Below are positions 29,150 through 33,714 of a stretch of DNA of 64,000 nucleotides, one piece after another. Numbering within the stretch: position 1 is the first letter of the stretch; each line of letters starts with the position of its first letter. Where the stretch lies: assembly GCA_945874665.1 (NCBI GenBank), contig CAMCHJ010000001.1, forward strand, positions 186,001 to 250,000. The letters are read 5' to 3'. The notes under the pieces were generated by a model. It was not told where the DNA came from. It did not search any database and saw only the letters and a list, made by a program, of their open reading frames with translations. Both the position numbers and the translations under genes were made by a program. This stretch comes from Chitinophaga pinensis. GTDB taxonomy: Bacteria > Bacteroidota > Bacteroidia > UBA7662.

Positions 29150-29758
29150 TTAGAGGGCTGCGGCGTATCGACGAGCCACTTCTGACCAGTTTACCACGTT
29201 CCAGAAGGCACTGATGTAATCGGGACGACGGTTCTGGTAGTTGAGGTAGTAGGCGTGCTCCCATACGTCGAGACCTAAAATCGGCATGCCGTTGCAATCG
29301 GTTACCACATCCATCAAAGGATTATCTTGGTTAGGCGTGCTGCAAACCTTTAGCTTGCCATTTTCAACGCACAACCAAGCCCAGCCAGAGCCAAAACGGG
29401 TAGCACCGGCTTTGGCGAACTCCTCTTTAAAGGCTGTAAACGAACCAAAGGCGCTTGTAATGGCTGCCGCTAAATCGCCACTAGGTTCGCCACCGCCGCT
29501 TGGGCTCATTACCGTCCAAAACAAACTGTGGTTGTAGTGACCACCACCATTGTTACGAACGGCAGCAGGCAATTTGCTGATGTTGGCCATCAGGTCCTCG
29601 AGCGATTTACCTTCGTGTTCGGTGCCAGTGATGGCAGCATTGAGGTTATTTACATAAGCGGCGTGGTGTTTGCCGTGGTGGATTTCCATGGTTGCCGTGT
29701 CAACATGCGGCTCAAGCGCATTGTGCGCATACGGAAGGGCGGGTAATTCAAATGCCAT
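29150..29758 (-). CDS. sodA: Superoxide dismutase, Fe/Mn family (Mn-type features)
   Basis: 202 residues. Metal ligands by alignment are H27 (MEIHHGKHH), H77 ([10 protein letters not shown]), D164 and H168 ([18 protein letters not shown]). The run [10 protein letters not shown] with three Gly is typical of Mn-preferring enzymes, although cambialistic use cannot be excluded. It converts superoxide to peroxide in the cytoplasm; there is no signal peptide. An exact TAACTTTG box lies 27 nt before the start. It sits next to a metal importer with Mn-type sensor residues. Confidence 0.95.
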
Positions 29759-29932: not shown

Positions 29933-30322
29933 ATGAAAAAAGTACTGTTAATGGCTGCCTTGGTTTTTACCATTGGCGCCGCCCAAGCCCAAGAGGCCAG
30001 AGCCCCCAAATCGCCGGAAGAAAAAGCCGAGCAAAAGGTAAATCGATTGGTTCAGCGATACGACCTCAGCAAAGACCAGCAAGCGCGCTTGCAGCCTGAG
30101 CTGGTAAAATCAGAACGCGCTATCGCCCAAAAACAACAAGCCGCACGCGAAGCCAGGCAGGAAGCGAGCCAAGCCCAGCGGGCACAAGAAACGATTGTCA
30201 TGCAAGTGATGGAGCCCGAGCAACAAAAGCGCTACGAAGCCGATAAGGGTAGGCGCCAAGATAAAAGGGAGCTCCATAAAAACCAGCCCAACAACCGAAT
30301 GGGTAGAGGCAAAGCCGAATAA
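29933..30322 (+). CDS. Small periplasmic Gln/Glu/Arg-rich helical protein (Spy/CpxP-like features)
   Basis: 129 residues. A signal peptide (MKKVLLMAALVFTIGAAQAQ) is followed by charged helices: EEKAEQKVNRLVQRYDLSKDQQARLQPELVKSE, then an Ala/Gln/Arg-rich helix and VMEPEQQKRYEADKGRRQ. The pattern 'LxLxxxQxxxLxPxL ... MxPEQ...Y' resembles small periplasmic Spy/CpxP/DUF4890-type proteins, some of which are chaperones induced by envelope stress. Similarity is by pattern only. It has its own promoter and terminator, so it is a single-gene unit between sodA and the metal importer. Confidence 0.65.
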   Translation: MKKVLLMAALVFTIGAAQAQEARAPKSPEEKAEQKVNRLVQRYDLSKDQQARLQPELVKSERAIAQKQQAAREARQEASQAQRAQETIVMQVMEPEQQKRYEADKGRRQDKRELHKNQPNNRMGRGKAE

Positions 30323-30400: not shown

Positions 30401-30420
30401 TTTTTAGACAAATCTAAAAA
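30401..30420. promoter_or_regulatory. Palindromic operator, candidate DtxR/MntR-family box
   Basis: A perfect inverted repeat, arms TTTTTAGA (30401-30408) and TCTAAAAA (30413-30420) around CAAA. The TTTAGnC...TCTAAA layout resembles DtxR-family operators. It lies 7 bp upstream of the -7 box, so it covers the -20 to -39 region of the predicted promoter, where a bound repressor would block transcription. The second downstream gene encodes a DtxR-like domain. Confidence 0.7.
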
Positions 30421-30427
30421 AGCAAGC

Positions 30428-30435
30428 TATCTTTG
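30428..30435 (+). promoter_or_regulatory. -7 box TATCTTTG of the metal importer operon
   Basis: Exact TAnnTTTG, ending 4 nt before the ATG at 30440. No good -33 TTG is visible; that position is occupied by the palindrome. Confidence 0.6.
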
Positions 30436-30439
30436 TAAA

Positions 30440-32206
30440 ATGCAAGCATCGAAGCGGTTAATTTTGATTTTTTGGTGGGGAGGGTTGTTCCTCCTAACGC
30501 CAATAATCACCGCTGCACAAACCGTAAAAGTGGTTGCAACCACCAGTTTTTTGGCCGACATGGCCCAGCAACTAGCCCCTGACAACTGCGAAGTGCTGTC
30601 GTTGTTGCCCCTAGGCGCCGATCCACATGTGTACGAAGCCGTTCCCGGTGATGCTCGGCTGCTGGCGGAAGCGGATATGATCATTGAAAATGGGCTCAAC
30701 CTCGAAGGATGGCTAAAAAAGTTGATTGACCAAGCCGGCGGCCAGGCACTGTTGCTGACGGCCGCACAGGGCATCGACGCCATTGGAAGCGCGGAGCACG
30801 CAGCTAGTTACGACCCACATGCCTGGATGGATCCGCTGTTGGGCCGTGTGTACATTCGCAATATTGCCAACGGCTTGCAGCGCTTGCTGCCCGCCCAAAC
30901 CGCCGAAATTGAGTCGCGGTACGAGCAATACGACCAGCAACTACTAGCGCTCCATACCTACATCGAAAGTCGTGTGGCTCAAATTCCACCCCAGCACCGC
31001 ATCATCGCCACCACCCACGATGCCTTTCGTTATTTTGGAAACCGCTACGGCATGCGGGTGCTCTCGGTACTTGGCACCACCACCGATGCGGAAGTGCGGG
31101 TGAGCGATTTACAAGCCCTCATCAGCACCATCGAAGTCGAAAAACTGCCGGCCATTTTTATCGAAAGCACCATCAATCCCAAGCTGCTGCAGCAAGTAGC
31201 GGCCGACGCTGGTATTCGCATTGGCGGCAATATGTATGCCGATAGCATGGGACCAAAAGGCAGCGGTGCCGACACCTACCTCAACATGTTGCGCCACAAT
31301 GCCAATACCTTGTTGGCTGGTTTGAGCGAAAGCGGGGCGGGGAGCAGTCGCCGCACCGACCTGCTCATGTTGCTGCTTATTGCAGACTTTTTTGCCCTAG
31401 CTTTTGTGGTGCTTGCGCTGCGCATCCAACGCAAAAACAGCAGTGCCTTGCCCGCGCTGCACCCCATTCACATTCATGGGCTCACGGTGGCCTACGATAA
31501 TAAAGTAATCCTCAACCACTTCGATTTGCAGCTAAAGCAGGGCAAGCTGTACGGACTCATTGGTCCCAACGGCTCCGGCAAAAGCACCCTTTTCAAAAGC
31601 ATACTGGGCCTCATCACCACCGATAGAGGTGCCATTTCGATCGGTGGGCTGCCTGTGCAGGCGGTACAAACCCACATTGCGTATGTGCCACAGAAGGAGG
31701 AGATTGACTGGACCTTCCCTGCCACCGTGCTCGACTTGGTGTTGATGGGCCGTTACCCGCACAAACGCCCTTTTGAGCGCTTGAGTGCGGCCGACAAAGC
31801 CAAAGTACTCGGCCACATCCAGGAGTTGGAGCTCGACGGCCTGCTGCACAAACAAATAGGAGAGCTTTCGGGCGGACAACAACAGCGCGTGTTTTTAGCC
31901 CGTGCCCTCGCACAAGAGGCCCAGCTTTATTTTTTAGACGAGCCTTTTGTGGGGGTAGATGTGACCACCGAAGATAAAATCATCCAAATCCTCCGCCGGT
32001 TAGTGAGCGAGGGCAAAACGGTGGTGATGATCCACCACGATTTGAGCAAAGCGCAGGCTTATTTCGACCAAGTAATCATGATCAACCGCCGCCTGGTGGC
32101 TTTTGGTCCACCCGCCGAAGTGGTAACCGAAGCCAATATCCTCCGCACCTTTAGCGGCACCCAGCCCATGTACGACCAGGCCGAACAATTTAATCGCAAC
32201 CGATGA
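30440..32206 (+). CDS. Metal ABC importer: fused periplasmic binding protein, membrane helix and ATPase
   Basis: 588 residues. After a signal anchor (about 5-26) comes a TroA/ZnuA cluster A-I metal-binding protein (about 28-296) with ligands H63 (DPHVYE), H127 (DPHAWMD), H193 (THDAFRYF) and D268 (YADSMG). One membrane helix (about 307-327) ends in RIQRK, fitting a cytoplasmic exit. An ABC ATPase follows (about 343-575): Walker A GPNGSGKST (375-383), Q-loop Q418, signature LSGGQ (476-480), Walker B LYFLDEP, H-loop IHHD. Family knowledge: these systems import Mn, Zn or Fe. Binding protein and ATPase are normally separate; here a helix joins them across the membrane. The start at 30440 is chosen because the promoter box lies just upstream. 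The stop overlaps the next gene by 4 bp. Confidence 0.9.
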   Translation: MQASKRLILIFWWGGLFLLTPIITAAQTVKVVATTSFLADMAQQLAPDNCEVLSLLPLGADPHVYEAVPGDARLLAEADMIIENGLNLEGWLKKLIDQAGGQALLLTAAQGIDAIGSAEHAASYDPHAWMDPLLGRVYIRNIANGLQRLLPAQTAEIESRYEQYDQQLLALHTYIESRVAQIPPQHRIIATTHDAFRYFGNRYGMRVLSVLGTTTDAEVRVSDLQALISTIEVEKLPAIFIESTINPKLLQQVAADAGIRIGGNMYADSMGPKGSGADTYLNMLRHNANTLLAGLSESGAGSSRRTDLLMLLLIADFFALAFVVLALRIQRKNSSALPALHPIHIHGLTVAYDNKVILNHFDLQLKQGKLYGLIGPNGSGKSTLFKSILGLITTDRGAISIGGLPVQAVQTHIAYVPQKEEIDWTFPATVLDLVLMGRYPHKRPFERLSAADKAKVLGHIQELELDGLLHKQIGELSGGQQQRVFLARALAQEAQLYFLDEPFVGVDVTTEDKIIQILRRLVSEGKTVVMIHHDLSKAQAYFDQVIMINRRLVAFGPPAEVVTEANILRTFSGTQPMYDQAEQFNRNR

Positions 32207-33714
32207 ACAGCTGGCAAGAACTCACCGACGTATTTGGCTATGCCTATGCCCAGCGCGCCCTGCTCGCCTCGGTGCTGGTGGGCATTACCTGCGGTTTGCT
32301 AGGCGTTTTTATCGTTTTACGTAATATGTCGCTCATCGGCGACGCACTTTCACACGCCATATTACCGGGCGTAGTGGCTGGCTTCCTCATCGCTGGCCAC
32401 AGCATTTTTGCCTTCTTCACCGGCTCCGTGATTGCGGGTTTGCTGGCCGCACTTAGCATCACCTGGCTTCAGCGCAACGTAAAAACCAAAGAAGATGCCG
32501 CCATCGGCATTGTGTTTTCGGCCATGTTTGCGCTGGGCATCATCGGCATTTCGGCGGTTACCAGGCAGGAGGGCGTGCACCTCGACATGAAGGATTTTCT
32601 GTTTGGCAATGTGCTGGGCATCGCCGACCAAGACCTTTGGCTCACGGGTCTCATCATGGCGTACACCTTGGTGTGTTTGGTGGCCTTTTACCGCTACTTT
32701 TTTGTAACCACTTTTCAGGCTGTAATGGCCCAAACGGCAGGCATTAACGCCAACCTCATGCATTATTTTATAATGATGCTACTCAGTTTTGCCGTGGTAG
32801 CCTCGCTGCAATCTGTAGGTGTAATTTTAGTAGTGGCCATGCTTATTATTCCTGCTTCCACGGCGCTTTTGCTTAGCAACCGATTGCCTGTAGTGCTCGT
32901 TTTATCGGCGGTGGTAGGGGTTTTGTCGGCCAGTATGGGCTTAATTTTCGCTATTCTTTGGGAAACCACGCCTGGTCCAGCCATGACCCTTGTGGCTACT
33001 GCTTTTTACTTGTTGGCGATGCTTTTTTCGCCGCAAAAAGGACTATTTGTACAATGGTTAAGACGCCTCAAGCGCCAACGGATACAAGCGTTGGAGGATG
33101 TGCTGAAAGCCCTGGTGAAGTTACAGGAACGGGGGGTAAAAGACTTGGCTGCCACGGCAGCGGCCATGGAAGTGAGTCCCCAAAAACTCCGCCGCCAACT
33201 CCAAGCCATGCAACAAAAGCGCTGGATTGAGTCGTGGCGCAACCAGCACATCCAGCTCAGCGCAGCCGGCTTGGAGCGTGGCTACCACCTCATTCGCGCC
33301 CACCGCATTTGGGAGAGTTATTTGGTGCAGGAGATGGGTTTGCAGACCGACCAAATACATGGACAGGCCGAGCAATTTGAGCACCGACTGCCGGAAGTAT
33401 TTTTGCAAGAAGTTGAAGCACACTTAGGCTTTCCAACCACCGACCCACACGGCTCGCCCATCCCCCAGCAAAGCAATGCTGCTTTGGTGCTTGCCCAGTT
33501 GCCGTTGGGCAGTCGCGCCATGGTGCTTACTGCCCAAAAAAGTGCAACTGTAAGCTCCGCCCTCTGGAAACTCGGCATTACACCCAACCAAGTGCTGCAA
33601 GTAGAGGCACAGTTGGCGGCCATAATGGTGGTACGTAGCGCCCAAAACAGCTTCGAGCTTCCGTTGTCGCTGGCCAAGCAGGTACTTGTACGCCAAATCG
33701 AAAAAAATAATTAA
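32203..33714 (+). CDS. Metal ABC importer permease fused to a DtxR/MntR-like repressor
   Basis: 503 residues. Residues about 15-280 are an ABC-3 (ZnuB/TroC-type) permease with eight or nine helices and the LIGDALSHAILPGVVAG block. The cytoplasmic rest is a complete three-domain DtxR-like protein. A winged helix (about 294-360, LAATAAAMEVSPQKLRRQLQAMQQKRWIE) comes first. The dimerisation/metal domain (about 361-420, AHRIWESYLVQEMGL, IHGQAEQFEH, DPHGSPIP) follows. An SH3/FeoA-like domain (about 425-500) ends the protein. Ligand positions match MntR: D299, E390, E393, H394 (Glu where DtxR has Cys102), with H367, E371 and H386 as further candidates; MntR Glu11 is replaced by K302. Chlamydial YtgCR is a known permease-repressor fusion that is cleaved to free the repressor. 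Confidence 0.9.
   Translation: MNSWQELTDVFGYAYAQRALLASVLVGITCGLLGVFIVLRNMSLIGDALSHAILPGVVAGFLIAGHSIFAFFTGSVIAGLLAALSITWLQRNVKTKEDAAIGIVFSAMFALGIIGISAVTRQEGVHLDMKDFLFGNVLGIADQDLWLTGLIMAYTLVCLVAFYRYFFVTTFQAVMAQTAGINANLMHYFIMMLLSFAVVASLQSVGVILVVAMLIIPASTALLLSNRLPVVLVLSAVVGVLSASMGLIFAILWETTPGPAMTLVATAFYLLAMLFSPQKGLFVQWLRRLKRQRIQALEDVLKALVKLQERGVKDLAATAAAMEVSPQKLRRQLQAMQQKRWIESWRNQHIQLSAAGLERGYHLIRAHRIWESYLVQEMGLQTDQIHGQAEQFEHRLPEVFLQEVEAHLGFPTTDPHGSPIPQQSNAALVLAQLPLGSRAMVLTAQKSATVSSALWKLGITPNQVLQVEAQLAAIMVVRSAQNSFELPLSLAKQVLVRQIEKNN

Follow-up and report, generated by a model that had tools for sequence, protein, structure and literature searches.

A permease-borne DtxR-like domain in Bacteroidota that has probably ceased to read DNA, beside a stand-alone MntR as predicted reader of the importer's operator

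The importer locus

In a stretch of 64,000 nucleotides from Chitinophaga pinensis (assembly GCA_945874665.1, contig CAMCHJ010000001.1, positions 186,001 to 250,000), here called the window, two overlapping genes encode the parts of a predicted ABC importer for metal, and the second of them joins an ABC-3 permease to a domain resembling the metal-dependent repressors DtxR and MntR. A palindrome precedes the pair. A reading made from the sequence alone, before any database search, had taken the locus to be a self-regulating metal-uptake module in two polypeptides, its fused repressor binding the palindrome. Is the fused domain really the reader of that palindrome, or has it been put to another use? 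The features, by position in the window, are these.

30401 to 30420, no strand: predicted MntR-type operator, a perfect 8+8 base-pair (bp) palindrome, TTTTTAGA-CAAA-TCTAAAAA, i.e., TTTTTAGACAAATCTAAAAA
30428 to 30435, plus strand: TATCTTTG, predicted -7 promoter box, 7 bp past the palindrome end, with the ATG 4 bp further
30440 to 32206, plus strand: gene 1, 588 amino acids (aa), periplasmic metal-binding protein, transmembrane helix and ABC ATPase
30530 to 31315, plus strand: ZnuA/TroA-type substrate-binding domain, gene 1 residues 31-292 (PF01297, E-value 1e-74)
31361 to 31417, plus strand: transmembrane helix joining binding protein to ATPase, gene 1 residues 308-326 (hydropathy 2.82)
31511 to 31948, plus strand: ABC ATPase domain (ABC_tran, PF00005), gene 1 residues 358-503 (E-value 4.8e-29)
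32203 to 33714, plus strand: gene 2, 503 aa, ABC-3 permease joined to DtxR/MntR-like domain
32239 to 33027, plus strand: ABC-3 permease domain of the Mn/Zn/Fe importer type, gene 2 residues 13-275 (PF00950, E-value 7.5e-71)
33043 to 33129, plus strand: continuous basic helix running from the last membrane segment into alpha-1 of the DtxR fold, gene 2 residues 281-309 (AlphaFold2, per-residue confidence, pLDDT, 83-90)
33094 to 33258, plus strand: diverged winged-helix region, gene 2 residues 298-352, with a predicted fold but lacking the conserved DtxR recognition helix
33265 to 33468, plus strand: metal-binding/dimerisation domain (Fe_dep_repr_C), gene 2 residues 355-422 (PF02742, E-value 1.8e-21)
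33490 to 33693, plus strand: FeoA/SH3-like domain, gene 2 residues 430-497 (PF04023, a weak match, E-value 8.6e-5)

Gene 1 starts with the ATG at 30440 and gene 2 with that at 32203, within a 4-bp stop/start overlap (ATGA); direct reading and Pfam matches bear out this overlap and the domain content first proposed, and the perfect palindrome does stand 7 bp before TATCTTTG. In binding protein, ATPase and permease alike the locus matches the TroABCD, PsaABC and MntABC importers, and the three parts lie, as there, in one operon, but here they are in two polypeptides and the permease bears a sensor domain. The top fold match of that permease is PsaBC (7kyp). In permeases of the ABC-3 type a domain following the last membrane helix is on the cytosolic side. 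In an AlphaFold2 model of gene 2, of low confidence in its membrane part and with an overall predicted template modelling score (pTM) of 0.50, the C-terminal region is a confident DtxR-like fold, with 5zr6, 4o5v and 7b24 the closest regulators.

The fusion is no peculiarity of one genome. That its like should be sought across Bacteroidota had been proposed, and homologues are present in the same genus, family and order, in some families of the class besides and, in a phylum sample of 392 genomes, in about 30 more. Relatives also conserve the two-gene pair and the palindrome, and more distant ones have an order like that of Chlamydia: binding protein, ATPase, permease-DtxR, permease. One 352-aa open reading frame (ORF) elsewhere (L030, G057:C4, 1498-2556) has a DtxR-like domain after a short stretch resembling a permease end, with a stand-alone MntR adjoining, and is possibly a rearranged fusion.

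Decay of the DNA-reading part

The C-terminal part of gene 2 had been described as an MntR/DtxR-like repressor, and for its metal-binding and dimerisation domain this stands: PF02742 is matched by all 26 fusions aligned, among which H367, E371, H386, E390, E393 and H394 are invariant. For DNA binding the sequence does not support it: PF01325, the DtxR DNA-binding family, finds no match in gene 2 and none in the 26 fusions (0/26), whereas both families are matched by every one of 20 stand-alone proteins. When the 26 fused domains were aligned with 45 stand-alone MntRs, mean pairwise identity in the metal domain was 0.55 for the fused and 0.64 for the stand-alone; in the winged helix the corresponding values are 0.22 versus 0.52, and in the recognition helix 0.18 versus 0.60. 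The FeoA/SH3-like domain is matched in only 7 of the 26.

Scoring of the helix-turn-helix (HTH) region was with a held-out profile of stand-alone MntRs, the references being stand-alone MntRs, that of Streptococcus included. Held-out stand-alone MntRs gave 64-100 bits and Streptococcus MntR 45, against -2 to 16.5 (median 3.5) for the fused domains, gene 2 of the window being at 8.5. On the metal-domain profile fused domains reached 61-84 bits, Streptococcus MntR 77.5 and stand-alone MntRs 103-128. Loss of the HTH in this lineage only was considered and is ruled out, since 29 more fusions, from other families phylum-wide, show the same pattern (metal domain 55-77 bits, HTH at most 16.5). Across 18 fusions the stretch that separates the last permease motif from G356 has only two invariant residues, D299 and K302, both borne on the helix of residues 281-309, and D299 corresponds to a metal ligand of MntR. 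In some genomes (G017, G019, G020 and G047) the DNA-reading helix is partly deleted, and the operator is conserved nonetheless. Comparison of the window with its closest relative gives identities of 53% for the fused HTH, 95% for the permease and 92% for the metal domain; for the stand-alone MntRs of the two genomes the figure is 97%. Saturated synonymous sites limit the ratio of non-synonymous to synonymous change (dN/dS) for the closest pairs, the calculation covered all but the last four pairs, and reliance was on identities and dN. From these comparisons the DNA-reading part of the fused domain has probably decayed, leaving it blind to DNA.

Several considerations weigh on the other side. 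In the model the winged helix retains its fold (pLDDT 82-90), and weak purifying selection has preserved its reading frame (w about 0.2 in comparable pairs); because of both, weak or altered DNA binding by the fused HTH may persist. One genus (G258 and G369, with G274 giving a weak match only) has, among the 31 further fusion genomes inspected for PF01325, the fusion without a clear stand-alone gene of that family. Also, chlamydial YtgR, which likewise originates in a permease fusion, is a DNA-binding protein.

The reader of the palindrome

If not the fused domain, what would read the operator? The window's genome encodes one PF01325 protein, a stand-alone MntR on another contig (G000 contig C13), with its DNA-binding domain intact. 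A PF01325 match over the cut-off is present in 28 of the 31 further fusion genomes; almost all of these matches are in ORFs of their own, 218-288 aa long, and many lie 2-3 kb upstream on the same strand. A stand-alone MntR is thus found in nearly all fusion genomes and is often the first gene of the importer operon.

The distribution of the palindrome accords with such a reader. Its family consensus is TTTAGRYNNRYCTAAA. Relatives whose upstream region could be read have this sequence, or one close to it, ahead of the binding-protein/ATPase gene, the exception being L053, where the operon starts with stand-alone mntR. Just two sites, at up to 3 mismatches, occur in the 2.29-Mb genome of the window, and this, together with the same upstream position in relatives, rules out a chance palindrome. 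Where the fusion is absent the motif, at no more than 1 mismatch, still precedes stand-alone mntR in 14 of 18 genomes, and in operons led by mntR it is upstream of that gene in 15 of 20 at the same threshold (shuffled expectation, 0.06 per 20). It was found upstream of mntR in none of 13 regions from the window's family and nearby orders; in the window's own family it is placed ahead of the importer and of a TonB-dependent receptor, and no longer before mntR. That a stand-alone MntR, and not the fused domain, is the predicted reader of the palindrome is strongly supported by this comparison, and TTTAGRYNNRYCTAAA becomes a candidate MntR operator for Bacteroidota.

How does this leave the proposal that the fused domain binds the operator, freed by cleavage or still attached to the membrane? 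Chlamydial YtgCR is what gave it appeal: its repressor part, YtgR, is cut free, binds DNA and represses its own operon (PMC5599777; PMC7755916), and the domain order is the same, a TroC-type permease of the ytgABCD operon with a C-terminal DtxR-like domain and conserved metal ligands, the four-gene layout being shared by some Bacteroidota relatives. The palindrome does precede the operon, and the model retains a winged-helix fold with basic residues in the recognition helix. However, that helix is neither conserved nor recognisable, the operator is conserved despite its partial deletion in some genomes, there is an intact MntR gene elsewhere, and genomes without the fusion have the same operator. 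The window system differs from YtgCR too in having the binding protein fused to the ATPase and a single permease gene. Nor does the model have a flexible linker at the junction, where its one continuous helix argues against a cleavable loop, though it proves nothing. After the HTH tests and the operator distribution, binding of the operator by the fused repressor was dropped as best explanation, and we regard it as very unlikely. Of the self-regulating module as proposed, what endures is a conserved importer module with a DtxR/MntR-type operator over its promoter; that the fused domain is its reader is not borne out by the sequence.

The box TATCTTTG is what we take to be a -7 box of the Bacteroidota type, TAnnTTTG, and several relatives have TATCTTTG, TATATTTG or TATTTTTG at the matching place. 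Only 4 bp separate it from the ATG of gene 1, with comparably tight spacing in some relatives, and because of this the importer transcript would seem to be leaderless or to have a very short leader.

The second palindrome of the window's genome lies outside the window (G000:C1:149521-149540; L003:1501-1520) and precedes the TonB-dependent receptor, whose plug motif is NCQNCG. Orthologues of this receptor with the palindrome and a similar CQ[NST]C motif are at L157, L158, L122, L123, L125 and L126. In Stenotrophomonas maltophilia, TonB receptors of the CQNC type have been placed in a MntR-regulated module (PMC13217887), and the receptor here, though in Bacteroidota, resembles that one (PMC13217887), which would link a CQNC-type receptor to the same candidate regulon as the importer. 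In one class-level relative (G048, contigs C2, C12, C13, C28 and C44) the TTTAGRYNNRYCTAAA motif occurs 17 times, much more often than in the others, which suggests a large MntR regulon.

A metal switch on the permease

That a metal-sensing domain is held beside the permease, as the sequence-only reading had it, is supported: the fused metal-binding domain follows the last membrane helix. For what purpose would a domain be so held if it is blind to DNA? The answer we favour on balance is that operator reading falls to a stand-alone MntR, and that the fused domain serves the permease as a metal switch, most likely through trans-inhibition. The two genes would provide a complete importer of the Mn, or Mn/Fe, type, presumably as a dimer of the two polypeptides. 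With metal plentiful, stand-alone MntR would bind the palindrome over the promoter and repress transcription of the importer. At the protein level, the two DtxR-like domains beneath the permease dimer would bind Mn or Fe when the cytosol is full, then close up, and in closing may hold the importer inactive. Metal bound by MntR links helix 1 with the dimer domain, and the angle of the DNA-binding part is fixed by this link; because the helix 1 of MntR type here continues a permease helix, metal binding would be expected to pull on the permease dimer. By analogy the simplest outcome of metal binding would be that import is braked when internal metal is high. Manganese is the favoured metal because of the MntR-type operator, the Fe/Mn-superoxide dismutase-like neighbour described below and the similarity to Mn importers.

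The working analogy is with MetNI and ModABC, which are held inactive by cytosolic substrate-binding domains (PMC10710835). Those too are substrate-sensing domains on a transporter, two copies per complex, but the sensor there is on the ATPase and not DtxR-like, whereas here it is on the permease and derived from a regulator, and its inhibition of this importer is argued from the analogy, a point to be set against the proposal with those given above.

Two other uses of the domain deserve weighing. It could serve as a cytosolic acceptor or buffer for metal at the permease exit, or as an assembly scaffold, with no allosteric control of transport. The metal ligands are after all the best-conserved part of the C-terminus, and there are Bacteroidota permeases with a winged-helix tail and no metal domain, so such tails can be structural. 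Yet the dimerisation domain is fully conserved, as is the helix-borne D299; this would suggest a switch over a simple acceptor, and we consider a mere acceptor or scaffold unlikely. Alternatively the fused domain might capture stand-alone MntR in mixed dimers, the importer thereby setting the amount of free MntR by sequestration at the membrane. A DNA-blind partner would be dominant negative, its dimerisation domain is conserved, and MntR and the fusion often share one operon; against this, fused and stand-alone domains have diverged (the 61-84 versus 103-128 bits given above, on one profile), and mixed dimers appear to us decidedly unlikely.

To return to the switch, its extension to Bacteroidota at large, with a DtxR domain that has given up DNA reading, retains metal site and dimer interface, is coupled to the permease through a rigid helix and has been exapted as an allosteric brake on a Mn/Fe importer beside an intact repressor, is put forward tentatively, as a possibility somewhat short of even. 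The fused domain shares with MntR, DtxR, IdeR and SloR the metal-binding/dimerisation domain, a weak FeoA-like domain and the overall fold, but it is without the PF01325 domain and is tethered to a membrane protein. If the proposal is true, metal import in cells of this phylum is governed at two levels by two copies of a sensor, the protein being braked quickly and the gene controlled slowly, and the chlamydial precedent should be applied with caution before a permease-DtxR fusion is annotated as a self-regulating repressor. We know of no earlier DtxR fold acting as a transporter brake, and a description of a DNA-blind permease-DtxR fusion was not found in the open-licence literature, which misses most subscription journals.

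Gene 1, neighbouring genes and related permeases

Candidate ligand motifs in the binding domain of gene 1 are DPHVYE (61), DPHAWMDP (125), TTHDAF (191) and YADSM (266), their ligand roles being presumed from TroA and PsaA. A helix at the position of residues 308-326 is present in 10 of 10 proteins examined, and the nearest kin of the ATPase domain are Mn/Zn importer ATPases. Most close relatives have binding protein and ATPase in a single ORF, nearly as widespread there as the permease-DtxR fusion; in two other genomes (G018 and G118) the binding-protein/ATPase fusion is unlinked.

Upstream of the importer is a Fe/Mn-superoxide dismutase-like gene (29150 to 29758, minus strand), a neighbour kept in seven relatives, and its retention there is in keeping with manganese. 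Between them, just upstream of the importer, is a small gene for a Spy-like secreted protein (29954 to 30322, plus strand).

The Bacteroidota ABC-3 permeases with a winged-helix-like C-terminal tail (L162 to L166, in G086, G252, G379, G061 and G280) have no DtxR metal domain in that tail. The tail often contains an H-P-H motif that is conserved, as in SHPHAIKIL of L163, and is possibly another metal-responsive, or a structural, one.

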